Shown: positions 6,148 to 33,347 of the stretch, piece after piece
Layout: each line of letters opens with the position of its first letter
Numbering within the stretch: position 1 is the first letter of the stretch
Virus record (IMG/VR): IMGVR_UViG_3300021437_000009
Span: 1 to 33,347 of that record
Reading direction: 5' to 3' (one strand)
Length of the DNA stretch: 33,347 nt
Source of the DNA: a virus
Made by a program: the position numbers and the translations under genes
The notes under the pieces: generated by a model
Databases searched by the model: none
Told to the model about the DNA's origin: nothing
The model's input: the letters and a program-made list of their open reading frames with translations, nothing else

Positions 6148-8101
6148 TAGTAACTTAATCATCGGTACATCATTAGATGGCAAGAGTGTTGATCAGACCT
6201 TTAGTCAGATAGAGAAGCGTGGCCAAGAGGCGGGTAAGTCTATTGGCGAGAGTATCAGCAGTGGTATCTCTAGCGGTGGTGGTGCTGGTGGTGGTGGATC
6301 AGGCTTCGGTGGTATCCTTAAATCATTCGATGTTAAAGGTATTCTTGGTGGTCTTGGTATTGTTATCGGAGGGCTTGAGGCGGCTAAGTTTGCTGCTGAG
6401 AACTTCTTTAACGTACTTGAAGGAGAGCGCCTACAGAAAATAGATAGACAGTTTCAGACTCTATCTAAAAATGCTGGCATTGTAGGATCTAACTTACAAC
6501 AAGGCTTAGTCGAAGCAAGTGCAGGACTGATAGATGATACAGATCTACTAAGTCTAGCCAATGAAGCTATGGTAGAACTTGGACATAGCGCCGCTAAGCT
6601 ACCACAGATCTTAGAGCTATCTCGTAAGGCAGCTAATCTATATGGTAGGAATACTCTTGATGTATTTAAGAACGTAGAAGATGCCATTGATACTGGTAAT
6701 GTTAAGAGATTAAGAGGCATCGGTATCGTTATAGATACTAACAAGGTGCTTGATGACTACGCTCGTAAGTTAGGAAAGAGTGTTGGTACTTTAACAGAAA
6801 CAGAGCTGCAGACTGCTAGACTTAACGCTATCACAGAAGTTATGTCTAAGAAGTTTCAGAATGTATCTGCTGATGCTGGTGGCTTTACTGAGTCACTAGC
6901 TAGAGTTAAAGCTACTCTTAATAACGTATTTGATGAAGCTAACAAGCAATCGGCAAGTGGCACTCTTGGTAAGATATTTAAGCAAGCTGCTGATGATAGT
7001 AATACATTCTTACAACGTGCCTTAGATGAGCCTGTTATTAAATTAAAGTTAGCTATTAATGATCTAGCAGAAGCACAGGCTAAGCTTAAAGAAGCACAAG
7101 ATAACGAAGGTATATTTTCTGGTCCAGAGATCAATCTTAGAACTAAAGAAGTTGATGATCTTAAGCTTAAAATCGAAGACCTTAAAAGAGTAGTCGGTGG
7201 CATTGGCTTAAACAGAGAGATCGTACAGCAACCGGAAGTATTAAAGCCTTCGCTAACTGAGGCTCAGCTTCAGTTCTTAAGACAACAAGAGCAGAAGCGA
7301 AACCAGATCAGCGCTGATGCTGCTCTAACTGCTGCACAGATTGAGTATGATCGTAACAATACTAGAGAGAGTCTACAGGCTTTAACCGATGCTAAGGTTA
7401 TTAAAGCCACTCAAGACTTTAACGCTTCTGTAGCTGCTATACGAGAGCAGAATAGAGCTAATGGTATTACTAACCAGGCTGAGATTAATAAGTCTATCGA
7501 AGCAGAAACGGTTAAACACTTATCTAATTTAGAGAAGATACAAGCAGAGTCTCAGCAGAAGCAGCTAGATCAATCTAAAAAGTTTCAGCAGTCATATAGT
7601 AATGCTGTAGTGTCTGGAATATCTACTACATTCCAAGCTTTAGGAGCTACGTTAGTTAATGGTCAGACAGCATGGAAGGACTGGGCCAGTGGAATATTAG
7701 GTATTCTAGGAGACTGGGCTATTGAAGTAGGTACTTTAGTGCTTGCTAACGGATTAGCATTAGAGGCTCTTAAGAATTCACTCCTTAGTCTTCAAGGTGG
7801 TCCAGCTATCGCAGCAGGTCTAGCATTGATATCTCTAGGTGGAGCGCTTAAGGCACTTGGTAAGTCTAAGGGTAGTGGTGCTGCTGCATCTACTGCCACA
7901 GGTGGTGGTGTTGCTGCTACTGGTGGTGGAGCTACAGAGGCTACTATCTCGGTTAAGGATATTCAGAAGAACGCTCAAGCTCCTGGTATTAACATAACTG
8001 TACAAGGTAACGTGATGGATAACAGGCAGACTGGTCTATACATAGCTGATGTGATCCGTGAGACTACCCTATCATCAGGCGTTAAGTTCGCTACTACATG
8101 A
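6140..8101 (+). CDS. Tape measure protein
   Basis: A 653-residue protein beginning at TTG 6140, behind AAGGAG at about 6127-6132 and overlapping the GT stop. It has a Gly-rich stretch (residues about 40-60), a hydrophobic segment near ILGGLGIVIGGLEAAKF, long helical regions in the middle (for example LAEAQAKLKEAQDNE and LTEAQLQFLRQQEQKRNQ), a hydrophobic region at about 510-580 (ILGILGDWAIEVGTLVLANG, AIAAGLALISLGGALKAL) and a Gly/Ala-rich tail. The tape measure sets tail length and may act in DNA entry. At the usual ratio of about 0.15 nm per residue the tail would be near 100 nm, which is an estimate. Confidence 0.85.
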   Translation: MADSNLIIGTSLDGKSVDQTFSQIEKRGQEAGKSIGESISSGISSGGGAGGGGSGFGGILKSFDVKGILGGLGIVIGGLEAAKFAAENFFNVLEGERLQKIDRQFQTLSKNAGIVGSNLQQGLVEASAGLIDDTDLLSLANEAMVELGHSAAKLPQILELSRKAANLYGRNTLDVFKNVEDAIDTGNVKRLRGIGIVIDTNKVLDDYARKLGKSVGTLTETELQTARLNAITEVMSKKFQNVSADAGGFTESLARVKATLNNVFDEANKQSASGTLGKIFKQAADDSNTFLQRALDEPVIKLKLAINDLAEAQAKLKEAQDNEGIFSGPEINLRTKEVDDLKLKIEDLKRVVGGIGLNREIVQQPEVLKPSLTEAQLQFLRQQEQKRNQISADAALTAAQIEYDRNNTRESLQALTDAKVIKATQDFNASVAAIREQNRANGITNQAEINKSIEAETVKHLSNLEKIQAESQQKQLDQSKKFQQSYSNAVVSGISTTFQALGATLVNGQTAWKDWASGILGILGDWAIEVGTLVLANGLALEALKNSLLSLQGGPAIAAGLALISLGGALKALGKSKGSGAAASTATGGGVAATGGGATEATISVKDIQKNAQAPGINITVQGNVMDNRQTGLYIADVIRETTLSSGVKFATT

Positions 8102-8109
8102 GGTAACTA

Positions 8110-8886
8110 ATGGCTCTTAAAACACGATCAGTATTCTACTACGGCCACACGATAACGCTTACTAATAAGTATCTAGATATTAACGAAGGCACAGGGGTTA
8201 TATCGGTAGAGATCCCAGAAGGCTCCTACACTCCTACCAAATTCTGTAGCGTGGTATCTACTGCGGTTAATGCAGTGGCTACTAACACATGGTCATTCAC
8301 CTTTAATCGAACTAATAGAACTATAACTATAACTGTTAACGTAGCTAGCAGCATCCTTGGATCTACTGGACCGAATGTGGCTAACTCTGTGATGAACTTA
8401 CTAGGGCTTGGCCTTAACGACTACGGTCCCTTTAACTCGCTAACCAGTGGACCTAGTGGGTACGAATACTCTCCACAGTTCTTACTACAGTCGTACCTAC
8501 CAAGTAGCCACACTAAGAAGCTTGTCTCTAGTGTTGTCACTAAGTCAGCTAGTGGTAAGTCTGTTACTGTGCAGAGCTTCGGCGAGCAGAGAATGGTTAA
8601 GTTTAATATCACTTATATTACTAACATCGTACAGCCTATTGGTAGTGTTATCGCATCAAGCCCAAGCGGTGTAGAGGATGCTGTAGCCTTCTTAGAATAT
8701 GCGACAAGTAAGTCCCCTATCGAAGCTATGTATGATGGTGGTGATAGGTTGACGTTTGAGAGTATCATGCTTGAGACTACTCAGGCTGATAGCTCAGGGG
8801 TGGGCTTTGAGATGATAGAGCTTTACGATAGGGGACTCCCCTACTACTATGAGACAGGACTATTAGTCTGGGTAGTAGTTGATTAA
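8110..8886 (+). CDS. Distal tail / minor tail protein
   Basis: A 258-residue protein starting at ATG 8110 after a GAGG ribosome site. It is beta-rich (TITLTNKYLDI, WSFTFNRTNRTITITV, MVKFNITYITNIV) and ends in an aromatic segment (LPYYYETGLLVWVVVD). It directly follows the tape measure, the place where Dit-like or minor tail proteins normally lie. I do not see enough to say Dit rather than a phage-specific minor tail protein. Residues 51-57 share an exact 20-bp stretch with the tail fibre gene (8260-8279 and 11376-11395). Confidence 0.55.
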   Translation: MALKTRSVFYYGHTITLTNKYLDINEGTGVISVEIPEGSYTPTKFCSVVSTAVNAVATNTWSFTFNRTNRTITITVNVASSILGSTGPNVANSVMNLLGLGLNDYGPFNSLTSGPSGYEYSPQFLLQSYLPSSHTKKLVSSVVTKSASGKSVTVQSFGEQRMVKFNITYITNIVQPIGSVIASSPSGVEDAVAFLEYATSKSPIEAMYDGGDRLTFESIMLETTQADSSGVGFEMIELYDRGLPYYYETGLLVWVVVD

Positions 8887-16158: not shown

Positions 16159-16677
16159 ATGGCTATTGTTACACCACTTAAAAAGATGATCCAAGAGATA
16201 GAGATTAAGTACAGATCTGCCGTGAGTGAGTCTACTTGGCGTAAGATCACAGGCTCTATTAACTTCATCAACACTTACCAATACCTCACTAAGCAGTTTC
16301 CTATTAACGGAGAGTACGACTTCGCTACTGGTGACACATTCGTAGATGGTATCCAGGTGTTCGAGTTCGATGCTGAGATCATTAACGTCTGGGCTTACAA
16401 CTGTGTTAACGGTACATCTGGCACGACTCAGCTAGACCTTAAGGTTAAGCCTAAGACTGGTGGATCATTCACATCTATTCTATCGGTTAAGCCAAGCATC
16501 ACTACAGCAAGTGGTGGCTTCGTGCATTTTGGAGTAGGTGATACTAAGACAGGATGTACAGCTCCTGTGTTGAGTACAACGAATGTCAATGCAGGAGATG
16601 CTATTCGTATTGATGTGATCTCGACTATGGTCAATGCTCAAAACTGTGGACTCATCGTACATTATAGACCAAGATAG
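16159..16677 (+). CDS. Last structural gene, tail-associated beta protein
   Basis: A 172-residue protein, ATG 16159 after TAGGAG. After a helical N-terminus (PLKKMIQEIEIKYRSA) comes a beta domain (IQVFEFDAEIINVWAYNC, TQLDLKVKPKTGGSFTSIL, DAIRIDVISTM), a pattern common in phage receptor-binding or baseplate accessory proteins. It is the last rightward gene before the convergent hairpin. The role is inferred from context; no family name is claimed. Confidence 0.5.
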   Translation: MAIVTPLKKMIQEIEIKYRSAVSESTWRKITGSINFINTYQYLTKQFPINGEYDFATGDTFVDGIQVFEFDAEIINVWAYNCVNGTSGTTQLDLKVKPKTGGSFTSILSVKPSITTASGGFVHFGVGDTKTGCTAPVLSTTNVNAGDAIRIDVISTMVNAQNCGLIVHYRPR

Positions 16678-16719
16678 TATCAGCTACTCAAGTGCGGCCA
16701 TGCTCTAAGCAATCGGCCC

Positions 16720-16754
16720 TACCGAGGGAGAGTAGCCTTAATATCCCCTCGGTA
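16720..16754. terminator. Convergent hairpin between structural and leftward operons
   Basis: TACCGAGGG (16720-16728) pairs with CCCTCGGTA (16746-16754), a perfect 9-bp stem with a 17-base loop. It lies 43 bases past the last rightward stop and directly after the endolysin stop on the other strand, so it can serve both transcripts. The T-rich follow-up on the plus strand (TTTAAG) is weak, so termination may be partial. Confidence 0.65.
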
Positions 16755-16755
16755 T

Positions 16756-17316
16756 TTAAGTATTATAGAGTGCCACTTCAGCCTTACGTCTACGAGTTAA
16801 TCCTCTGAATGGCTTACCACCTGCCTTATCGTACAATAGAATTGTATCACAGATAGCCTGATGGTTATGGCTCTTAAGTGCTGAGTTAAGAGATCTACCA
16901 CTTGATATGATCGGACCTAAGCCTAGATTGTAGCCAAATGAGCAGAGCGCTGAGAACTGGTTATCTGTGAGTGTTAACCCTATCTCATGTAGATATCTAG
17001 CGATAGACTGAGCCTTGATGTCTATCTCCCATCGTAGCCATTCCATCGCTTGATCTTGTGTACACCTTGGATCTGCTAGAGATACCTTACGACCATCGGG
17101 ATAACCAATAGTGCCGAAGCCTATGGTAGGTATGCCCACTGGATCTAGGTATGGTGCTGAGTAGAAGCCCTCAAACGAGCAGACTAATAGCAGTCCTGCT
17201 TGGTTAATAAAGCGAGTGTCAGTAGGTGGATCTGTTTTGATTAAATTACTTGGTGGTACGCTTGGTACGTCTGCGCTTGGGCTTCTCTTGAATATGCTCT
17301 TTAACCACTTCCACAT
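16756..17316 (-). CDS. Endolysin, GH24 T4-type lysozyme
   Basis: A 186-residue enzyme that cleaves the glycan strand of peptidoglycan. The catalytic triad spacing is intact: Glu49 in SFEGFYSAPYLDPVG, Asp58, Thr64 in IPTIGFGT, the same E-x8-D-x5-T spacing as T4 lysozyme. NQFSALCSFGYNLG and RGLTRRRKAEVALY are the further conserved parts. The first 40 residues (KWLKSIFKRSPS, then Pro-rich) are basic and polar, not a clear signal or SAR helix, so release probably needs a holin. The start overlaps the upstream gene by 71 bases in another frame. It is encoded on the strand opposite the other candidate lysis genes, about 3.3 kb away. Confidence 0.9.
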   Translation of the reverse strand: MWKWLKSIFKRSPSADVPSVPPSNLIKTDPPTDTRFINQAGLLLVCSFEGFYSAPYLDPVGIPTIGFGTIGYPDGRKVSLADPRCTQDQAMEWLRWEIDIKAQSIARYLHEIGLTLTDNQFSALCSFGYNLGLGPIISSGRSLNSALKSHNHQAICDTILLYDKAGGKPFRGLTRRRKAEVALYNT

Positions 17317-17524
17317 TAGTCACCATCCCTTTTGGTATTGTCATTGTGCAGCTAGAGTTATTGTTACTAACGTCTATATTGACGGCAATAGTATAGTGAT
17401 CTGCTGACTCATTTATTAAGTAACCAGCCGACATGATCGGAGTAGGTGGTAGTGGGTCGCTAAGGTGAGTCCACTCGTCACGAGATACAGCATCAAGCCA
17501 TGAGATGACTACAATAGGATACAT
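17246..17524 (-). CDS. Small phage protein of unknown function (SWLDA-type)
   Basis: A 92-residue protein. I place the start at the second ATG of ATGATG (17524), five bases after GGGGAG and overlapping the phosphoesterase stop; an upstream ATG at 17542 is less likely. The sequence starts YPIVVISWLDAVSRDEW and has MSAGYLINES, TIAVNIDVSNNN and MTIPKGMV, a pattern I recall from small hypothetical proteins of many phages. The last dozen residues are very basic (KPKRRRTKRTTK), which suggests binding to nucleic acid or to an acidic partner. Function unknown. Confidence 0.6.
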   Translation of the reverse strand: MYPIVVISWLDAVSRDEWTHLSDPLPPTPIMSAGYLINESADHYTIAVNIDVSNNNSSCTMTIPKGMVTNVEVVKEHIQEKPKRRRTKRTTK

Positions 17525-18240
17525 CATAGCTCCCCAGTCCATCGGTTATTAGCGTCTAGCTTCATTCGGATAAGCATAGGATCACCATTAAGGATGATGC
17601 CTGTACCAATGACAGGAGACTTAAGGTTAAGCTTGTTGTAGTCGAAGTCTTTAGATGTGTTATCTATTAAGCATCCACACTGCATAGACCAGAAGTTACC
17701 GTTAGTAGTAGACCAGTGCTCAGTCTTAAAGCGCTCGTGGTAGTGGCCTTGTACAGCGCACATCCCCATCATTTGACCTAGCTTGGTAACGTCTGAGCTT
17801 CTACCGTGGCAGAAGTACACTTGCTTAGATCCGGTTACCTTAATCGTCAAGTCACCTACCCACTGCCAGTCTGAGCGTGGGATCTCTAGAATGTCGTTAG
17901 GTGATCTGAGCGCATTGGCTGGCAGTCCTGCTGTCTTCATCTTACGAGCTAGTAGAGAGCCATGATTAGAGTCTAGCACCTTGGCTTTAGGGAATAGCTC
18001 ATAGAGCGCTCTTATCGGACCTAGTGCCATGTCTAACTCTAGAGAAGGGTTAGGCATAGATGGGTCTTTTTCGTGGTAGCTGATAGAGTGCCAGGTTAAC
18101 TCATCGCCTAATATTACACACATTGGGCGCTTGGCCTTAGCCCAGTACTTCTTTTTAATAGCTCGAAGGAATTTAATAGCATCGGGGTGGTGGAATGGAG
18201 CGTGCAAGTCACTAACGCATATTACCAAGTCGTGCAGCAT
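17524..18240 (-). CDS. Calcineurin-like metallophosphoesterase
   Basis: A 238-residue protein; ATG 18240 follows GGAGGTGGCTTG and is preferred to the TTG just before it. Metal-binding motifs appear in family order: DLH (near residue 11-13), GDE (about 45-47), NHGS (about 92-95), CHG (about 143-145) and GHYH (about 165-168). This is the double-metal site of calcineurin-like phosphoesterases. Substrate cannot be told from sequence; phage members include protein phosphatases, nucleases and cyclic-nucleotide or RNA end phosphatases. It lies between an HNH protein and the SWLDA-type gene in the leftward unit. Confidence 0.8.
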   Translation of the reverse strand: MLHDLVICVSDLHAPFHHPDAIKFLRAIKKKYWAKAKRPMCVILGDELTWHSISYHEKDPSMPNPSLELDMALGPIRALYELFPKAKVLDSNHGSLLARKMKTAGLPANALRSPNDILEIPRSDWQWVGDLTIKVTGSKQVYFCHGRSSDVTKLGQMMGMCAVQGHYHERFKTEHWSTTNGNFWSMQCGCLIDNTSKDFDYNKLNLKSPVIGTGIILNGDPMLIRMKLDANNRWTGEL

Positions 18241-18301
18241 CAAGCCACCTCCTACAATTTAAGATCTTGTAAGATATTCAGGCTTGTAGCAAGTCTAGAC
18301 T

Positions 18302-18598
18302 TTAGTGGCGTGCTAACTTTTTACGCACGTTATCAAGATACCAGCCAAGCTCTGTCAGCGCAGCTAGTGTGTTGGGATGTCTTAGAGCGAAGGTGTATGA
18401 GCCTTGAGAGTGCCACTTGATATGGTGCTTACGGCATAAGGGTAGAAGGTTATGTGGCAGATCATCGCCACCACTTCCTTGCGTCTTAATATGTGATGGA
18501 TCACAAGGAGTATAGCCACATTCTACACACCGCATGGAGTGGTAGGTGTTAAGTAACTCACGATCAGATATTCGTTTAACTAGCTTTACGCTTGGCAC
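18302..18598 (-). CDS. HNH-type nuclease
   Basis: A 98-residue protein starting at GTG 18598, inside the end of the upstream RHH-like gene. It contains CVECGYTPC, then SHIKTQGSGGDDLPHNLLPL and CRKHHIKWH: paired Cys plus His/Asn positions of a zinc-stabilised HNH fold, in the style of NinG/recombination-type phage nucleases. It probably nicks or cuts DNA in recombination or repair. It is not beside the terminase, so a packaging HNH is less likely. An internal start would lose the first 20 or so residues without touching the motif. Confidence 0.75.
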   Translation of the reverse strand: MPSVKLVKRISDRELLNTYHSMRCVECGYTPCDPSHIKTQGSGGDDLPHNLLPLCRKHHIKWHSQGSYTFALRHPNTLAALTELGWYLDNVRKKLARH

Positions 18599-18740
18599 GC
18601 TTCACCATCTCTATGCGTACAGCTTCACGAGTTATAGCCTCTCTGAGTGCTGATCTAACTACATCGCTAATATTAATACCAAGAGCCTTAGCGTCTGCTA
18701 GGTCCTGGATGTCTATTCTAATTGGGTATGGCTTCTTCAT
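18576..18740 (-). CDS. Small ribbon-helix-helix-like DNA-binding protein
   Basis: A 54-residue protein read from ATG 18740 after AGGAGTTATAG. The order is a short strand (YPIRIDI), helix (QDLADAKALGI), turn, and helix (NISDVVRSALREAITREAV), then a basic tail (KRAKRKAS). That is the layout of Arc/MetJ/CopG proteins, which dimerise and read inverted repeats with the strand. It is the second gene of the leftward unit, about 130 bases from a perfect inverted repeat at 18869-18886, and is the obvious candidate to bind it. It overlaps the HNH start by 23 bases. Confidence 0.65.
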   Translation of the reverse strand: MKKPYPIRIDIQDLADAKALGINISDVVRSALREAITREAVRIEMVKRAKRKAS

Positions 18741-18749
18741 CTATAACTC

Positions 18750-18851
18750 CTAGCTTAGTATTAAGTACATCGGCAAAAATGTTGCAAGCGAGATTGCTAT
18801 ACCTACGATATTTAGTTTGATTAAGAATACTATGTCCTGCTTAGTCATCAT
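18750..18851 (-). CDS. 33-residue membrane peptide
   Basis: An ORF read from ATG 18851 (or the ATG at 18848) after GTGGAGG. After a short polar start (MTKQDIVFLIKL) it is one hydrophobic helix (NIVGIAISLATFLPMYLIL) ending in AGC and TAG. It is the first gene of the leftward transcript, and its stop is followed at once by the ribosome site of the RHH-like gene. A clean ribosome site and the membrane segment support it as real. Function unknown; a holin-like or membrane-signalling peptide are possible. Confidence 0.55.
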   Translation of the reverse strand: MMTKQDIVFLIKLNIVGIAISLATFLPMYLILS

Positions 18852-18868
18852 AACCTCCACTGAATAAA

Positions 18869-18886
18869 GTATAGCAAGTGCTATAC
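18869..18886. promoter_or_regulatory. Perfect inverted repeat in divergent promoter region (operator candidate)
   Basis: GTATAGCA-AG-TGCTATAC is an 8+2+8 perfect inverted repeat. On the minus strand it contains the TATACT of a possible leftward -10 box; on the plus strand it covers the -35 position of a possible rightward promoter whose -10 is TATAAT at 18896-18901. A dimeric repressor here could control both units. The nearby RHH-like gene is the best candidate regulator. Confidence 0.6.
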
Positions 18887-18895
18887 ACTATGCGC

Positions 18896-18901
18896 TATAA
18901 T
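18896..18901 (+). promoter_or_regulatory. Candidate rightward -10 box (TATAAT)
   Basis: A consensus TATAAT in the only divergent intergenic region. The matching -35 is poor and lies inside the inverted repeat, as expected for an activated or repressed promoter. The eight bases TATGCGCT at 18889-18896 just before it are the reverse complement of the AGCGCATA unit repeated at 22812-22833. Confidence 0.45.
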
Positions 18902-18972
18902 AATTACACGATACTTGTAACTCCTAGATAACTGTGGCCTATTGTAGTACCAAAATGAGACTAGTGGGGATC

Positions 18973-19248
18973 ATGTCAGGACAAGTCTACATTCGTAACT
19001 TACAGCCACACACAGTCTATTACATAGTAATGTCTACCAGAGCAGAGGCTACATACGTTAAGACCTTTGTTGTTAAGGATGGCATATTGGTGGACATCAC
19101 TCGCAGAATATCTGGTGCGCTTAACTTACATCATAGTGAGCCTAAGAATAGCGCTATAGTGCCAGCGTTCGAGCATAGCACAGCACAGTGGTTACAAGAT
19201 CAGCTTAACTTAATACTTAAATACAGACCTACAATCGTAGGGCTTTAA
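18973..19248 (+). CDS. First gene of rightward early operon, unknown function
   Basis: A protein of 91 residues from ATG 18973; GTG 18934 or ATG 18955 would give 104 or 97. No start has a strong ribosome site, so the start is uncertain. The sequence (VYIRNLQPHTVYYIVMST, TYVKTFVVKDGILVDITRRI) is beta then helical, ending with a helix (AQWLQDQLNLILKY). It has no motif I recognise. Being the first gene after the divergent promoter, it is probably an early protein. Confidence 0.55.
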   Translation: MSGQVYIRNLQPHTVYYIVMSTRAEATYVKTFVVKDGILVDITRRISGALNLHHSEPKNSAIVPAFEHSTAQWLQDQLNLILKYRPTIVGL

Positions 19249-19257
19249 TAGGAGGTA

Positions 19258-19482
19258 ATGATGAAGAAGAAACTAGCAAGCCTATGGCTTAAGCAAGGTC
19301 CTAAAGGTGACTACCTTACAGGCACACTCGCAGACGGTACACGAGTGATAGCGTTCTATCGCTCAGCAGAGAGTAAGAAAAACCCTAAGCAGCCTGACCT
19401 TGAGATCTACGAGCAGGAGCCTAAGGCGCAGAGTGCTGAGCAGGATATATTCGGTAACGATAGTACAGAAATTCCCTTCTAA
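19258..19482 (+). CDS. Small early protein with SSB-like C-terminal tip
   Basis: A 74-residue protein after a strong TAGGAGG site; ATG 19258 or the ATG at 19261. The body (LASLWLKQGPKGDYLTGTL, RVIAFYRSAESKKNPKQPDL) resembles small phage proteins found next to recombination genes. It ends with acidic residues and Ile-Pro-Phe (DIFGNDSTEIPF), like the tip of bacterial SSB that docks partner proteins. It lies just upstream of Gp157 and ERF genes, so it may bring host SSB partners to phage DNA or mimic SSB. Whether the body binds single-stranded DNA is unknown. Confidence 0.55.
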   Translation: MMKKKLASLWLKQGPKGDYLTGTLADGTRVIAFYRSAESKKNPKQPDLEIYEQEPKAQSAEQDIFGNDSTEIPF

Positions 19483-19496
19483 TAAGGAGTATTGAT

Positions 19497-19724
19497 ATGA
19501 GTAAAATTAAAGAATGGATCATAGACACTGGAGTGCCTGAGTTCATCGGAGCTAGGGCACGTATGCTACAAGCTGATGGGTATTGCATCGAGTACCTTCA
19601 CAAGATTAACGAGAACAAGATGATGAGCTTCGCATATAGATACCGTAACGAGAAGGAGGTAGGTAATGAGCAGTCTGTTAGAACTAACACAGGAAGCGCA
19701 GAGATTAACCCAGACTTTAATTGA
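19497..19724 (+). CDS. Small early protein of unknown function
   Basis: A 75-residue protein, ATG 19497 after AAGGAG. It is compact and helical-beta (KIKEWIIDTGVPEFIGARA, GYCIEYLHKINENKMMSFAY) with charged ends. The last 59 bases overlap the next gene in another frame, whose ribosome site (GGAGG) lies inside this one. No family recognised; it belongs to the early recombination operon by position. Confidence 0.5.
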   Translation: MSKIKEWIIDTGVPEFIGARARMLQADGYCIEYLHKINENKMMSFAYRYRNEKEVGNEQSVRTNTGSAEINPDFN

Positions 19725-20178
19725 AGCAGACGGAGAGCTAGACTATTCGCTTGAGTTAGCTCTCACTACTACAGCCAATGAGTTGGCACTTAAGATAGAT
19801 AAGTATTACTACTTCCTAAAGCACCTAGAGATGCAGGAGCAGTATTACAAGGATCTCGAAGACCAGGCTAAGCGTGCTAAGCAGCTTATGCAAAAAGGGC
19901 AGGAGAACCTTAAGAGTAGACTCATGGCCGCTATGGTTAACGGTAGCACCACAGAGCTAGTAGGTGAGGCTCATCGCTTTAAGCTACAGGCTTCTAAGCC
20001 AAGGCTTGTAATAGATACAGAAGCGCACTCTCTACCGGAGAAGTATCGCATCGTTGAAACTATTACTCGGGTTAATAAGGAAGCTATAAGGACCGATCTC
20101 GAAGATGGTATAGAGGTCTTAAACTGTAGACTAGAGCCAAGCGTACACGTTAGGCACTACTTAAATACGAAGGGATAG
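19666..20178 (+). CDS. Siphovirus Gp157-family protein
   Basis: A 170-residue protein, ATG 19666 after AAGGAGGTAG. A long helical N-terminal part with LALKIDKYYYFLKHLEMQEQ and QYYKDLEDQAKRAKQLMQ, then a beta part (STTELVGEAHRFKLQASKP, PEKYRIVETITRVNK) matches the Gp157 family, often found beside single-strand annealing proteins. The family's exact function is not settled. It precedes the ERF gene by three bases, so the two are likely one functional unit. Confidence 0.8.
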   Translation: MSSLLELTQEAQRLTQTLIEADGELDYSLELALTTTANELALKIDKYYYFLKHLEMQEQYYKDLEDQAKRAKQLMQKGQENLKSRLMAAMVNGSTTELVGEAHRFKLQASKPRLVIDTEAHSLPEKYRIVETITRVNKEAIRTDLEDGIEVLNCRLEPSVHVRHYLNTKG

Positions 20179-20181
20179 AAC

Positions 20182-20823
20182 ATGGTTACAAGTGAAACTA
20201 CTAAGACTATATATCAGGCGCTTATTAAGGCTAGGGCTGAGTTTAAGAGTGCGCCTAAAGACGTAAGCAACGATTACTTTAATTCGAAGTATGCCGACTA
20301 TCAGAGCGTAGTTGATAGCATTGGTGATGCGCTTATTAAGCATGGCCTCTCATTCCTACAGCCTACTGTTTACTACAACGATAAGCTTCATGTTGCTACT
20401 CGTATCATACATGAGAGCGGCGAATGGATTGAGTGCTTATATCCAGTTACGTCTATTAAGCAAGATGCCCAGGGTATCGGTAGCGCTCTCACTTATTCTC
20501 GCAGGTACTCCTTATCAACACTCATAGGCGTAGTGACTGGCACTATAGACGATGATGGAGAAGCGGCTATGGATCGAAAGGCTACGCCACCGCCACAGCA
20601 GAAGCCAGTAGTTAAACAGGCGGCTAAGGCTCCTGTTAAGAATGAGACAATGGTTACTACTGAGCAGGTTAGCAAATTACTAGAACTAGCTATGGAGCGT
20701 AATATCTTAGAGAAGGATCTCTATGCTAAGATTAACGATGCCTTTAAGGTACCTGGCCCAGCATTTTTAAAAGTCTATCAGATGGCAGATCTGGTTAAAG
20801 ATATTAAGGCTGGTGGCAAGTGA
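20182..20823 (+). CDS. erf: ERF-family single-strand annealing protein
   Basis: A 213-residue protein (ATG 20182, weak GGGAT site). The conserved core is clear: NDYFNSKYADYQSVVDSI, LSFLQPTVYYNDKLHV, the QGIGSALTYSRRYSLSTLIG signature and VTGTIDDDGE, as in P22 Erf-type recombinases. ERF proteins anneal complementary strands in phage recombination and in forming concatemers or circles. The linker (about 130-155) is Pro/Lys-rich, followed by a helical C-terminus. No partner exonuclease is adjacent; the VRR-NUC protein at 24220 may supply junction processing. Confidence 0.85.
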   Translation: MVTSETTKTIYQALIKARAEFKSAPKDVSNDYFNSKYADYQSVVDSIGDALIKHGLSFLQPTVYYNDKLHVATRIIHESGEWIECLYPVTSIKQDAQGIGSALTYSRRYSLSTLIGVVTGTIDDDGEAAMDRKATPPPQQKPVVKQAAKAPVKNETMVTTEQVSKLLELAMERNILEKDLYAKINDAFKVPGPAFLKVYQMADLVKDIKAGGK

Positions 20824-20957
20824 ACTTCAGTTATCAGATACTATGCAAGTTAGATGAGATAGCAGAGCTACTTAAGATGCTTATCCTTGAAATAAAAAAT
20901 ACACAGGAGAAGCCTAAGGTTAAGACTAAAGCTGACAAGGAGACTCAGGCCAAGTAG
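20820..20957 (+). CDS. 45-residue helical protein
   Basis: An ORF from GTG 20820 in a GTGA overlap with the ERF stop, ending TAG at 20955-20957. Sequence: a helix (ILCKLDEIAELLKMLILEI) then a Lys/Thr-rich tail (KVKTKADKETQ). The four-base overlap and lack of intergenic space favour a real, coupled gene. Function unknown; a small partner of the ERF or initiator protein is possible. Confidence 0.45.
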   Translation: MNFSYQILCKLDEIAELLKMLILEIKNTQEKPKVKTKADKETQAK

Positions 20958-20981
20958 ATAGCTTGGCCTGTGGAGGTGGAT

Positions 20982-21818
20982 ATGAAGTGGTTTAAGCATT
21001 ACTCGGATAACTATAGAGGCAGATCAGTAGCGGCGTTCTACCGTGAATTTGGCCACAACGGCATTAGCTGGTACTATTTATTAACAGAGATATGCACAGA
21101 GAAGATGGTGCTGCGCCATGGCAGTGATGACATAGCGTCGATGTGTAGCTTTAGGTTCGACAAGGCGGTGTTAGCATCAAGCATGAGGACCGTTCCATCT
21201 AAGTTAGAGAGGTGGCTAAGCTTCGGTTCAACACTTGGCTTGTGGACTTTAACTTCAGATGAGTTCGAGTTCAACATAGAATATCCTATCTTATCGGAAT
21301 TATTAAATAGAGACGAGACCAGGCAGCGTCAGAGGCGCGTCAACTCTGTGTCAAGTGCGCGGCTAGAATTAGATAAAGAATTAGATAAAGAATTAGATAA
21401 AGAAAAAGAGTTAGAACTATATAATAAACCTCCAGCACCTGTGATTAAGCCACCACGAGTGCCAGCTACCACTAAACAAGACGCAGAGCATAACAAGCTA
21501 ATTAAGACGCAGTACATTAACTCCTATCGCTTACGCTACGGAGTTGATCCAGTTACTCAAAATGCTGCCTTTAATTCTCAGGTATCTAAGCTCAGACAGA
21601 AGCTTGGAGTGCAGGAGGCTATGCAGGTGGTAGAGTTTTACCTAACGCATAACGATTCTTTTTACTTAAAAAAAACACACTCATTCGGTTTGTGCTTGAG
21701 TGATGCAGACACACTTCGTACACAGATGCTCCGTGGTCAGCAGGTAACTACGGCAGATGTTAAAGCGTTTGAAAATAAATCTAACTACGAGTCTCAGTGG
21801 GAGAGGATGGGCAAGTGA
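20982..21818 (+). CDS. Replication initiator-type protein (DUF4373-like N-terminus)
   Basis: A 278-residue protein. ATG 20982 follows GGAGGT and is preferred to GTG 20970. The N-terminus (MKWFKHYSDNYRG, GISWYYLLTEICTEKM) is the DUF4373/Lin1244-type winged-helix start found in phage replisome organisers. A low-complexity linker (LDKELDKELDKEKELE, residues about 131-146) comes from 12-bp direct repeats. The C-terminal part (YRLRYGVDPVTQ, NSQVSKLRQKLG, VVEFYLTHND) is a helical domain typical of these proteins. It would bind the origin and load the host helicase, together with the next gene. No helicase or polymerase is encoded, so the host replisome is probably used. Confidence 0.7.
   Translation: MKWFKHYSDNYRGRSVAAFYREFGHNGISWYYLLTEICTEKMVLRHGSDDIASMCSFRFDKAVLASSMRTVPSKLERWLSFGSTLGLWTLTSDEFEFNIEYPILSELLNRDETRQRQRRVNSVSSARLELDKELDKELDKEKELELYNKPPAPVIKPPRVPATTKQDAEHNKLIKTQYINSYRLRYGVDPVTQNAAFNSQVSKLRQKLGVQEAMQVVEFYLTHNDSFYLKKTHSFGLCLSDADTLRTQMLRGQQVTTADVKAFENKSNYESQWERMGK
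21366..21401 (+). repeat. Three 12-bp tandem repeats inside the initiator gene
   Basis: GAATTAGATAAA occurs three times head to tail (21366-21377, 21378-21389, 21390-21401) and is followed by AT-rich GAAAAAGAGTTAG. It encodes the Glu-Leu-Asp-Lys linker. AT-rich direct repeats within an initiator gene recall lambda O and related origins, so this is a candidate origin of replication. Confidence 0.7.
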
Positions 21819-22773: not shown

Positions 22774-22812
22774 ATTAAATAGACGGCACTAAATTAGAAG
22801 TTAGATAAGTAA

Positions 22813-22836
22813 GCGCATAGCGCATAGCGCATAGCG
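22813..22836 (+). repeat. Tandem heptamer repeats GCGCATA x3
   Basis: GCGCATA is repeated three times head to tail (22813-22833) and followed by GCG. An A before each unit gives overlapping AGCGCATA octamers. The reverse complement of the octamer lies just before the -10 box at 18896. The repeats lie 24 bases before the start at 22860. They may be binding sites for a regulator or an initiator. Confidence 0.65.
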
Positions 22837-24599: not shown

Positions 24600-24618
24600 T
24601 AGTGTAATTATTACACTA
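24600..24618. promoter_or_regulatory. Perfect 8+3+8 inverted repeat before the ParB-like/methyltransferase genes
   Basis: TAGTGTAA-TTA-TTACACTA lies between VRR-NUC and the next gene. TTGACC at 24583-24588 with a TAATTA at 24605-24610 is a possible promoter, and the repeat covers its -10 region. It is directly followed by AAGGAGG. It may be an operator, or an RNA stem that controls access to the ribosome site. No U-run follows. Confidence 0.55.
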
Positions 24619-24630
24619 AGGAGGTATCCT

Positions 24631-25152
24631 GTGGATACTAAGTCTAACCCAGTGGGCGAGATAGAACTACATCAAGGCGAGATTAAACTCGTATCTATTA
24701 AGAAGCTCAAGGCCAGAACAGGAAACCGTAACTCCCACAACACAGAACAGATAGACCAGCTAGTTAAGGTCTACAAGGCTCAAGGCTTCCGTAACCCTAT
24801 CATAGTATCTAACCAGTCAGGAGAGATAGTGTGTGGCACAGGTAGATACCTTGCTGCTAAGAAGGTGGGGCTTAAAGAAGTACCTGTGATCTACCAGGAC
24901 TATGCATCGCCAGAACTAGAGTATGCTCATCACATTGCGGACAATTCGTTAGCGAAGTGGAGCGATCTAGATCTATCTGGTATCAATGCAGATCTAGAGT
25001 TCTTAGGACCGGAATTAAATCTGGATCTCTTGAGTATTCGTAACTTCGAGCTAGAGCCAGCAGATAAGCCTACCAAGAGTGCCGAGCGCATACCTAAGCC
25101 ATGTCCTAATTGTGGCTATGTTAAGGATGAAGCAGGAGCTGTGCATGATTAA
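24631..25152 (+). CDS. ParB-like nuclease/partner-domain protein
   Basis: A 173-residue protein, GTG 24631 after AAGGAGG. It has the ParB/sulfiredoxin-type N-terminal domain: NRNSHNTEQIDQLVKVYKAQ, the GFRNPIIVSNQSG strand, and CGTGRYLAAKKVGLKEVP, the GxGR signature loop, at about 68-85. Then comes a helical region (HHIADNSLAKWSDLDL) and a short zinc-type CPNC near the C-terminus. Phage proteins of this kind often precede DNA methyltransferases, as here (8-base overlap). It is not part of a ParAB partition system: no ParA is present. Confidence 0.8.
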   Translation: MDTKSNPVGEIELHQGEIKLVSIKKLKARTGNRNSHNTEQIDQLVKVYKAQGFRNPIIVSNQSGEIVCGTGRYLAAKKVGLKEVPVIYQDYASPELEYAHHIADNSLAKWSDLDLSGINADLEFLGPELNLDLLSIRNFELEPADKPTKSAERIPKPCPNCGYVKDEAGAVHD

Positions 25153-26413
25153 GCTAATGCTTGGAGATAACATACAGACGCTAAAAACTCTGCACGCTAA
25201 CTCAGTAGATTCAGTGGTTACCGATCCTCCTTATGGCTTATCCTTTATGGGCAAGCACTGGGATTACTCAGTGCCAAGTGTTGAGCTATGGCGTGAAGTA
25301 TTGAGAGTGCTTAAGCCAGGTGGCCACCTACTAAGTTTCGGTGGCACTAGGACTTATCACCGCATGGTGGTTAACATAGAAGACGCAGGGTTTGAGATAC
25401 GAGACCAACTACAGTGGATATACGGATCCGGCTTTCCTAAGTCGCTTAATATCAGTAAGGCGATTGATAAGGATAAGGGCGCAGAGCGTGCGGTTATTGG
25501 CTTTAATAAAAATCATCGTTCACTTAAAGAAACTAATTGCATGGTAGGTGAGCCTCATTCTGGAAATGGATCATTAACAGCACCAGCAACGGACCTTGCA
25601 AAACAATGGGATGGATGGGGTACTGCTCTCAAGCCAGCCAATGAGCCTATCGTATTAGCTCGCAAGCCTTTGATCGGTACTGTGGCTGATAACATCGAGG
25701 CGTGGGGAGTCGGTGGACTTAACATTGATGGGAGTAGGATACCAGTATCAGATGATGATCCTAATCATGCTCGCCCAAGTGTAGGATTGAATAGCGCAAA
25801 AAAACCTATTGTTACTAATTTTGGAAGTGGTGGAAGGCCAGTTGAAAACTTAAACAGCCTAGGACGATGGCCAGCTAACGTCCTATTCGATGAGGATGCG
25901 GCTGCGATGCTTGATGAGCAGAGTGGTGTATCTAAGTCTAAAAAAAATAAAGTAAGTGATAATAGAGATAATAAAAATAAATCTATGTTTATAGATGGCG
26001 TACACAACGAGAAAAACACTCATAGTGATGAGGGCGGCGCATCTCGCTTCTTCTATGTAGCTAAGGCCAGCAAGTCAGAGCGAAACGCTGGGCTTGAGGG
26101 GATGCCTGCTAAGCTGAATGATTTTCAAAGGTCATCATCAGGACTATCCACAACTACAATTGATGGTATTAGACAAAAAGGTAATTGCGGTCAGCCTAAT
26201 CAAAATCACCATCCAACAGTCAAGCCTATCAAACTAATGCAATACTTAATTAAACTCATCACACCACCACAAGGCGTAGTGCTAGATCCATTTATGGGAT
26301 CAGGCTCTACTGGTGTCGCAGCTAAGCAGCTAGGCTTTAACTTCGTAGGATGTGAGTTAAGTGAAGAGTATTACGAGATAGCTACTAAGAGAATAGAGGC
26401 AGCTAATGGCTAA
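25145..26413 (+). CDS. DNA methyltransferase, amino group type (beta class)
   Basis: A 422-residue protein. ATG 25145 follows CAGGAG; a longer frame would run far into the upstream gene. Motif IV DPPYG is at residues 27-31, a catalytic region for N4-cytosine or N6-adenine methylation, while the SAM-binding DPFMGSGSTG comes near 381-390, the beta-class order. GFEIRDQLQWIYGSGFPKS and HPTVKPIKLMQYL are other conserved blocks. The segment between (about 120-350) should hold target recognition and contains AT-rich patches unlike the rest. No restriction enzyme is seen, so it is likely an orphan enzyme protecting phage DNA or acting in regulation. Confidence 0.9.
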   Translation: MIKLMLGDNIQTLKTLHANSVDSVVTDPPYGLSFMGKHWDYSVPSVELWREVLRVLKPGGHLLSFGGTRTYHRMVVNIEDAGFEIRDQLQWIYGSGFPKSLNISKAIDKDKGAERAVIGFNKNHRSLKETNCMVGEPHSGNGSLTAPATDLAKQWDGWGTALKPANEPIVLARKPLIGTVADNIEAWGVGGLNIDGSRIPVSDDDPNHARPSVGLNSAKKPIVTNFGSGGRPVENLNSLGRWPANVLFDEDAAAMLDEQSGVSKSKKNKVSDNRDNKNKSMFIDGVHNEKNTHSDEGGASRFFYVAKASKSERNAGLEGMPAKLNDFQRSSSGLSTTTIDGIRQKGNCGQPNQNHHPTVKPIKLMQYLIKLITPPQGVVLDPFMGSGSTGVAAKQLGFNFVGCELSEEYYEIATKRIEAANG

Positions 26414-28148: not shown

Positions 28149-29612
28149 ATGGCAGTATCAGATAAGTTACAGAGTTTAAGTTATCGTAAGATGGTTATAG
28201 GCCAGATTAATGGTACTGAGAACAAGGAACGTAAGCGCATCTCTTATAAGCAGAACGAAGTATATAACGACAGGATTAGACCATACATCCTTGAGTACCT
28301 TCGCACACAGTTCAAAGAAGAGACTGTGCTACAGATGCCTATCATCGACTCGATTAACCTATCTAAGCGAATCGTTAATAAAGAAGCATCACTCTATGTG
28401 CAAGAGCCTAAGCGTGAGTTTAAAGGAGTTAACCCAGAACAGGCCACAGAGTTAGATGAGTTGTACGATAGTCTTAAGATAGATACTAAGCTACTCGTAG
28501 CTAACCAGAAGTACTGTAACCAAGGCCAAGCGTTCTTAATGGTCGTACCTACAATGAGTGGTAAGCTTACAGTACGCACACTCATGGCGCATCAGGTAGA
28601 CGTTATCCCTAACGAGTTTGATCCAGATAAAGCTGACTGCTACATCATGTCTACCTACGATAGATCACTAGACTACTATAAGTCTGATGGTCTTAACCAA
28701 GACATTGCAGATGCAGACGACTACAAGGCTCAAGAGCGCTATGTGGTGTGGACTGCTGAGCTTAACTTCATCATGGATGGTAAAGGTAATATCGTATCTG
28801 ATGTGCTACCTAATCCTATTGGTAGACTTCCATTCGTAGACATTAGCTCTCGTAAAGACTTCGAGTTCTTCGTGCGTGGTGGTGAGGCTCTAACTAACTT
28901 CACTATTCAGTACGCATCTGCACTATCTGACTTAACTCAGGTGATTAAGATGCAAGGGTGGTCTGTGGCTTACCTAAAGGCACCAGCAGAGCTTATGCCT
29001 ACAGAGATCACAGTAGGACCTAACAGAATTATTAGACTCACGATTGATCCTAATAACCCTATCGTTCCTGAGTTCGGCTTCGCATCTCCTAGTCCAGACC
29101 TAGCAGGATCTATCTCATTCATCGAGATGCTGCTTGCTAACTTCATTACCTCTAAAGGTCTAGACTCTAAGGTTATCTCATCTAAGCTACAGTCTACCAG
29201 CTACTCATCAGGCACTGAGAGACTACTCGCTATGCTTGATATGTTCGAGGCTACTAGATCTGATATGGATCTTTTTTCGTGGGTAGAAGATGAGCTATTT
29301 GAACTAATCAAGTTATGGTCTAATGCTATGGTAGGTACACCATTACAAGTGGCATCATTCGTTATCCCTAACGATGCTGAAGTAGACATCGACTATCACT
29401 GCCCTGAGATGGTGACCACTGAGCAAGAGAAGCTCACACTTATTACTACCAAGATGGATGCTGGTCTTATGTCTAGAGTTGAGGCTATCGCAGAGCTTCG
29501 TGATGTAGACGTAGAAGAAGCAGCAGCTATTGCTCAAGAGATTGATAGTGGAATGATGGCACCAATGCCACAGGGAGCTAACCTTGCCAACAACCAAGCA
29601 GAAGGTAACTGA
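28149..29612 (+). CDS. Portal protein
   Basis: A 487-residue protein, ATG 28149 after AAGGAG. Helical segments, a central core with LMAHQVDVIPNEFD and NPIGRLPFVDIS, and a C-terminal helical region with MVTTEQEKLTLITTKMDAG are typical of SPP1 gp6-like portals. It forms the dodecameric ring at one capsid vertex, the docking site for the terminase and the neck. It follows TerL directly, the standard position. The last residues are Met/Pro/Asn-rich and overlap the next gene by 29 bases. Confidence 0.85.
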   Translation: MAVSDKLQSLSYRKMVIGQINGTENKERKRISYKQNEVYNDRIRPYILEYLRTQFKEETVLQMPIIDSINLSKRIVNKEASLYVQEPKREFKGVNPEQATELDELYDSLKIDTKLLVANQKYCNQGQAFLMVVPTMSGKLTVRTLMAHQVDVIPNEFDPDKADCYIMSTYDRSLDYYKSDGLNQDIADADDYKAQERYVVWTAELNFIMDGKGNIVSDVLPNPIGRLPFVDISSRKDFEFFVRGGEALTNFTIQYASALSDLTQVIKMQGWSVAYLKAPAELMPTEITVGPNRIIRLTIDPNNPIVPEFGFASPSPDLAGSISFIEMLLANFITSKGLDSKVISSKLQSTSYSSGTERLLAMLDMFEATRSDMDLFSWVEDELFELIKLWSNAMVGTPLQVASFVIPNDAEVDIDYHCPEMVTTEQEKLTLITTKMDAGLMSRVEAIAELRDVDVEEAAAIAQEIDSGMMAPMPQGANLANNQAEGN

Positions 29613-30171
29613 AGAGGAAGTATCCTTAAGGTTTAATCTTAAGGATATGTTCGGCACTGCTGTAGCAGATGAGACTATCGTACAAGATATGGCTAACTCC
29701 ATCATCGACACGATACGCAACCGCACACTCTCAGGCTTCGGAGTATGGGAGGATGGAAGTGTTAAGCGCTTTAAGAAGTACACTAAAGAATATGCTACTA
29801 AAAAAGGTGTAGGTGTGGGTGATGTGGACTTAGAACTAACTGGCTCTATGCTTGATAGTATCGAACTACTAGATTACTCCCCTCAGACATTCTCTATTGG
29901 TATCATCGGACCAGATGCGCCAAAGGCTCATGGCCACATGACAGGACAAAATGGAGTAGGTCCACTACCTAAGAGACCATTCCTTAACGTAACAGAGCGA
30001 GATATTAAGGCAGTAGTTAAAGACTTCACACCAGACGTTAATGCTCTACAGGATAAGTCAGCTCAAGCTGCTATGAGTAGTAAGCGTGCTGATAACTTAG
30101 GCTTCACAGAGGCAGATATTATAGAAGCTATTCGATTGCTACAGTCTGGTAAAGGACCGAGGATCTTATGA
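29584..30171 (+). CDS. HK97 gp10-like / virion morphogenesis protein, first copy
   Basis: A 195-residue protein from TTG 29584, which has GGGAG six to ten bases before it; ATG 29647 is a weaker alternative. It contains DLELTGSMLDSIELLDYS, QTFSIGIIGPDAPKAHGHMT and LPKRPFLNVTERD, the pattern of minor head or neck proteins in the HK97-gp10/virion morphogenesis group. The ELTGSMLDSI and HGHMTGQNG parts have equivalents in the protein at 30364, so two related genes stand nearly side by side. Overlaps the portal gene in another frame. Confidence 0.65.
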   Translation: MPTTKQKVTEEEVSLRFNLKDMFGTAVADETIVQDMANSIIDTIRNRTLSGFGVWEDGSVKRFKKYTKEYATKKGVGVGDVDLELTGSMLDSIELLDYSPQTFSIGIIGPDAPKAHGHMTGQNGVGPLPKRPFLNVTERDIKAVVKDFTPDVNALQDKSAQAAMSSKRADNLGFTEADIIEAIRLLQSGKGPRIL

Positions 30172-33023: not shown

Positions 33024-33347
33024 TGCATCTTAAGTTTAATCCATTCACAGGGCAGTTAGACTTAGTAGATACAGGTGGAGCAGGTGGTACTACTAATAGC
33101 ATCATCATAACTAAGACAGCAGGTGAGACCATCAGTGCGCTTAAGGCAGTATACGTTAAGCTCAGTGATGGACTAGCCTATGTGGCCAGCAGTGCAGCTA
33201 CTAATGTAGAGGCATTGGTTATAGGTATAGCTATATCATCTGGTAATGCTGGTGATTTAATAACCATAGTTACATCAGGAGAAGTAGTAGACGCTGGGTG
33301 GTCGTGGTCTAGTAACGGTGAAGTGTACTTATCTAGTAACGGATCTG
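33023..33347 (+). CDS. Virion decoration/fibre-like protein, N-terminal part (continues at 1-130)
   Basis: ATG 33023 overlaps the previous stop (TAATG) and the frame runs open to the end of the window. Through the circular join it continues to 130, giving 141 residues. The start (HLKFNPFTGQLDLVDTGG) is a short anchor type seen in phage appendage proteins, followed by a Gly/Thr turn and a beta domain (SALKAVYVKLSDGLAYVAS, EALVIGIAISSGNAGDLI, VTSGEVVDAGWSWSSNG). The AxxxVyvklsdG-to-GiAis pattern resembles the next gene (139-648), so the pair may be a duplication. Confidence 0.65.
   Translation, partial: MHLKFNPFTGQLDLVDTGGAGGTTNSIIITKTAGETISALKAVYVKLSDGLAYVASSAATNVEALVIGIAISSGNAGDLITIVTSGEVVDAGWSWSSNGEVYLSSNGS
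33319..33347. repeat. Terminal direct repeat, right copy (circular closure)
   Basis: Identical to bases 1-29; see the left copy. The true genome length if one copy is removed is 33,318 bp. An 11-base direct repeat (TCTAGTAACGG at 33308-33318 and 33333-33343) sits at the join, a spot where an assembler could lose or add a short unit; the open frame across the join argues against an error. Confidence 0.9.

Follow-up and report, generated by a model that had tools for sequence, protein, structure and literature searches.

The only divergent region of this phage genome appears to hold a control element of a familiar type, but one found at a position that in related viruses is taken by regulators of the usual lambda style. 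In the reading that we favour, to which we give about an even chance, the region serves divergent early control: a small ribbon-helix-helix (RHH) autorepressor would act on CTAT heptads in the gap and repress two operons, its own to the left and the recombination/replication operon to the right.

The window that was studied is the whole virus record IMGVR_UViG_3300021437_000009 (33,347 bases), which may represent a complete circular or circularly permuted genome because an identical 29-bp stretch is found at both of its ends (1-29 and 33319-33347). It has the gene content of a phage, including terminase, portal, scaffold, major capsid, Erf annealing, Gp157/Gam-like, ParB-like and methyltransferase genes. 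DNA searches matched no named relative of the record, nor did the 16500-20500 region match the DNA of any named phage; likewise, the portal protein had no match in named phages, and a close scan with the terminase and the major capsid gave no relative. Related phages were those gathered by a portal profile, which recovered them but nothing in bacterial genomes, and the long rightward genes of the record are common to them.

The main genes are all rightward apart from a leftward block at 16756-18851. As the original prediction held, the window has a single minus-to-plus change of gene direction, in the intergenic region 18852-18972. Leftward from it, all on the minus strand, the first gene (18750-18851, with GGAGG 2-5 nt upstream of ATGATG) encodes a peptide of 32-33 aa; its one hydrophobic stretch (mean hydropathy 2.22) makes the proposed membrane peptide plausible, but nothing links this peptide to control itself. 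The second gene (18576-18740) encodes the 54-aa RHH protein that is the proposed repressor, and its end is overlapped by an HNH endonuclease-like gene (18302-18598), followed by a metallo-phosphoesterase (17524-18243; phrog_221, E 5e-41), a 98-aa protein whose function is not assigned (17246-17542) and, as the last leftward gene, a phage lysozyme, or endolysin (16756-17316; PF00959, E 7.6e-27). On the plus strand, the first gene (18973-19248) encodes 91 aa from the ATG at 18973; its product belongs to no recognised family and gives a poor structure model (pLDDT 54), and it may be a hidden regulator. The early genes that would come under the proposed control follow at 19258-20823 (plus strand) and encode a 74-aa protein, a 75-aa protein, a Gp157/Gam-like protein and the Erf annealing protein. 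The 74-aa protein (19258-19482) ends in an SSB-like acidic tail, DSTEIPF, and a similar small protein ending in SDSDIPF is located leftward in one relative (G002). A search of the window for HTH_3-type genes gave no match, in agreement with the predicted absence of a CI/Cro-type gene.

The 54-aa protein is a member of the ribbon-helix-helix (MetJ/Arc) superfamily with a CcdA-type N-terminal domain, as judged from its sequence and a structure model, and in this respect the RHH-like fold first suggested for it is borne out. It matches the Pfam CcdA profile (PF07362) at 30.5 bits against a curated cut-off of 22.4, while the RHH_1 profile scores 15.6, below its cut-off of 20.5. In a single-sequence AlphaFold2 model (mean pLDDT 89), residues 1-10 are extended and helices are predicted at 11-20 and 24-53, and the turn G21-I22-N23 is of the GxN type described in RHH antitoxins (PMC2812701). 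The reported structural neighbours are all RHH proteins (CopG, CopA(SO), Rv0298/MazE-mt10 and MazE-mt9), at modest Z scores of 2.0-3.9, and Foldseek gives a weak match to CopG (E 5.4). The CcdA match covers profile positions 1-39 of 71, that is, the N-terminal RHH domain; the protein ends at residue 54 and leaves the C-terminal toxin-binding region (positions 40-71) unmatched, and no CcdB (PF01845) was found in the record. Because both the toxin-binding half and CcdB are missing, the protein looks like a stand-alone DNA-binding module. Close homologues were found neither in viral contigs nor in named phages, and weak plasmid matches (E 0.1-0.3) are annotated as CcdA.

Between the two gene blocks lies the proposed core operator, a perfect 8+2+8 inverted repeat at 18869-18886, GTATAGCA-AG-TGCTATAC, exactly as predicted. 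The predicted overlap with promoter elements is also seen: the repeat overlaps a leftward extended -10, (TGC)TATACT (18868-18873, minus strand), and takes up the -35 zone that belongs to a rightward TATAAT (18896-18901, plus strand). Both elements are sequence matches without a good -35, and the leftward extended -10 9-mer, TGCTATACT, is unique in the genome. By best promoter score the rightward element ranks 80th and the leftward 219th of 66,632 positions, according to a hand-written E. coli matrix that may not suit the host; a consensus promoter scan of 16500-20500 reported none in the divergent gap. The leader of the putative leftward transcript would be about 10-13 nt long, with the GGAGG inside it.

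The inverted repeat alone is weak evidence for an operator, because perfect palindromes with 8-bp arms are not enriched genome-wide (seven listings, four of them distinct, against a shuffle mean of 8.0); the chance that one falls in the 112-bp divergent gap is 2.5%. The full site, GTATAGCANNTGCTATAC, is matched once in the window, at 18869-18886, even when up to three mismatches are allowed, and a scan of viral contigs for the candidate operator returned no other carrier; no relative shares it. Three of the five exact genome copies of the half-site GTATAGCA fall within 92 bp (18795, 18869 and 18879). The third of this cluster (18795-18802, minus strand; TGCTATAC on the plus strand) lies within the membrane-peptide gene, and a further copy in the flanks of the gap has a 3.2% chance.

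A larger pattern appears when the gap is read in 7-bp steps, as three contiguous direct heptads, CTATACA-CTATGCG-CTATAAT (18881-18901, plus strand), the last of which contains the rightward -10, plus one inverted copy, CTATACT (18868-18874, minus strand), which includes the leftward -10. The inverted repeat noticed at first consists of this inverted heptad and the first direct heptad placed head-to-head, the two being separated by 6 bp rather than contiguous. A second intergenic array, (CTATGCG)3.6 at 22812-22836 on the minus strand, is a possible second site of the same regulator; an 11-mer, CTATGCGCTAT, occurs once in the divergent gap and twice in this array, for which the E. coli matrix gives no strong promoter in the forward direction. 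In statistics that are post hoc, the tests having been made once the pattern had been seen, arrays of at least three CTAT heptads at a 7-bp period are confined to these two genome places, against a shuffle mean of 0.027; among all tetramers at periods of 5-12, CTAT at 7 bp (reverse complement ATAG) is the sole non-self-complementary motif with at least three copies in two separate intergenic places; and 3.9% of shuffled gaps hold an array of this kind, whereas 0.03% (0.0003) hold one that recurs in a different intergenic region.

From the observed sequence elements, RHH family, gene order and matching position in relatives, we infer dimerisation, a binding site, two promoters, dual repression and its timing. 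The RHH protein would be made from the leftward operon and dimerise, and its dimers would bind cooperatively to the CTAT-containing 7-bp sites between the operons; since such binding would cover both -10 elements, both operons would be repressed. The leftward target would be the protein's own operon (membrane peptide, RHH, HNH, phosphoesterase and lysozyme), and the rightward target would be the recombination/replication operon. The outcome would be a delayed negative feedback, in which the early genes fire upon infection and are damped while the protein accumulates.

One may argue that the RHH protein represses the leftward operon only and that the rightward operon is constitutive or otherwise controlled. 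Small RHH antitoxin-like proteins most often serve in autoregulation; moreover, it is the leftward -10 with which the inverted repeat has the closest contact, and the leftward transcript includes the third half-site (18795). However, the direct heptads run rightward across TATAAT, which pure autoregulation would not need, and we regard this explanation as rather unlikely. It is also conceivable that the palindrome and heptads are read by a host factor or an unrecognised phage protein, while the RHH protein has its target at another place or is what remains of an antitoxin, now an orphan. No direct link joins protein and site, the 54-aa protein is CcdA-like without a CcdB, and no conservation of the protein/site pair was found; yet the RHH gene lies in the operon adjoining the site, and the window yielded no second regulator of a typical kind, which leaves this alternative unlikely.

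The second array invites a further explanation, namely that 22812-22836 is a replication or partition element that the heptads of the divergent gap resemble by chance. Replication-type genes lie close to the array, no clear promoter points forward from it, and the RHH protein of pSM19035 binds such arrays as a ParB. On the other side, a CTAT unit that recurs every 7 bp in two intergenic places and nowhere else is improbable by chance, and three 7-bp copies are short for iterons. A replication or partition role for the array, with chance resemblance in the gap, seems decidedly improbable.

Known systems offer several points of comparison. P22 Arc is an RHH protein encoded in the ant operon, and the Arc operator serves both divergent promoters. 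Arc is autogenously regulated (PMC2629481). The same anatomy is present here, with an RHH gene in one operon and an operator-like repeat between divergent putative promoters; P22 Arc is the nearest working analogue of the proposed repressor. As in P22 immI, with its Arc and Mnt, a small phage-encoded RHH repressor would sit in a regulatory region, a likeness of sequence anatomy. The differences are that the window shows no recognisable antirepressor, Mnt or sar RNA, that its protein matches CcdA and not Arc in Pfam, and that the locus adjoins an early replication operon rather than lying in a late-operon moron. The heptads have a partial parallel in the RHH protein omega of pSM19035, which uses contiguous direct or inverted 7-bp sites over promoters (PMC9499535); here three direct heptads span the putative -10, TATAAT. 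Omega sites, however, consist of WATCACW in 7-10 repeats and have an additional role in partition, whereas the gap has three direct and one inverted CTATNNN, the inverted copy is offset by 6 bp, the second array is without a clear promoter, and no ParA was recognised. RelB, an RHH antitoxin, binds cooperatively to two adjacent 12-bp half-sites of 6-bp repeats (PMC2812701) and thus resembles the pairing proposed here of an antitoxin-type RHH protein with adjacent repeated sites, but its core is [A/T]TGT[A/C]A and RelE is its co-repressor, whereas no RelE-type partner was recognised in the window. The likeness to CcdA of ccdAB lies in the N-terminal RHH domain, above the Pfam cut-off; the absence of a toxin-binding C-terminal half and of CcdB sets the window apart. 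Finally, putative divergent promoters and a palindromic candidate operator beside early replication/recombination genes recall the CI/Cro region of lambda-type phages, but here a single RHH protein takes the place of an HTH_3 regulator.

The relatives bear on this last comparison. At or near the matching position one of them (L030) has a leftward-strand RHH_1 protein beside two small hydrophobic peptides (1335-1758, RHH gene first), echoing the pairing of RHH protein and membrane peptide in the window. Two others (G005 and G008) have Cro/CI-type (HTH_3/CI-type) genes at or near this position; the regulator gene of G008 falls just under the curated cut-offs, and the gap in G008 holds a perfect palindrome. 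In G009, a distant relative whose portal is 31% identical, a CI-like and a Cro-like gene diverge (29035-29713), and G007 has no clear leftward block there. The regulator gene lies at matching distances from the ParB-like gene and the portal, namely 5.9 and 9.4 kb in the window, 5.2 and 8.2 kb in L030, and 6.1 and 9.3 kb in G005. As relatives carry either Cro/CI-type or RHH genes there, the position can be taken as a control slot of the lineage with changing content, and RHH is the minority solution at it, an exception among relatives. RHH matches are rare: of the 25 records that have the portal or the phosphoesterase gene in common with the window, many of them fragments, one gave a match. The replication gene led to 18 further records with one RHH_1 match (in G038), and that gene is not at the matching place because it lies downstream of the replication gene. 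Heptad-type (7-bp) arrays are absent from the tested divergent regions of relatives.

We tentatively consider it possible that this is a modular early control slot in which both a CI/Cro-type HTH regulator and the operator belonging to it gave way to an antitoxin-derived RHH protein, which controls at least two separate intergenic sites via CTAT arrays. If true, it would show in simple form how a DNA-binding domain of antitoxin type can serve to repress early genes of a phage, and how regulators can be exchanged at one constant position inside one lineage; the operator code would be CTAT at 7-bp steps, with two predicted sites in a 33-kb genome.

The relatives also bear on the original description of the locus as a switch and possible main control circuit. 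The latter is reasonable, given the Cro/CI-type HTH genes that relatives hold there, but "switch" is overstated. That the locus is a true lysis-lysogeny switch finds its best argument in the slot of G009, since its divergent CI/Cro-like HTH pair, together with an integrase-like match below its cut-off in the same record, suggests temperate members of the lineage. However, a tyrosine integrase (PF00589) is unmatched in the window and in 22 of 23 relatives, a single regulator was recognised, and no portal relative appeared in bacterial genomes, all of which makes a lysogeny switch very unlikely. A feedback autorepressor is more economical, because one regulator and no tyrosine integrase were found. 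Least probable of all, and hardly tenable, is that the inverted repeat works in RNA, as a hairpin or a weak leftward terminator/attenuator: a scan lists it as terminator-like and a 7-bp stem is possible, but with z -1.3 and -1.9 the fold energy does not stand out, the run of T is poor, and termination would fall just ahead of the very operon being transcribed. Fold energy and position were the grounds for rejecting a terminator.

Elsewhere in the genome, a perfect palindrome, TAGTGTAATTATTACACTA (24600-24618), lies just upstream of the ParB-like and methyltransferase genes and overlaps a promoter-like TTGACC-17-AATTAT that ranks 8th in the genome by the E. coli matrix, which may not be the host's. 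It is possibly the operator of another regulator, and it has no related site beyond chance. The ParB-like protein and the DNA methyltransferase are encoded by separate genes in the window (24631-26413) and appear fused in L030, in one 408-aa frame (6930-8156). In addition, a strong hairpin, CAGGCCAAGTAGATAGCTTGGCCTG (20946-20970; z -2.9), immediately precedes the Shine-Dalgarno sequence of the replication-type gene, which starts at 20970/20982, and an in-frame 12-bp repeat, AGAATTAGATAA, present in 3.3 copies at 21365-21404, encodes a LDKELDKELDKE stretch of the replication-type protein.
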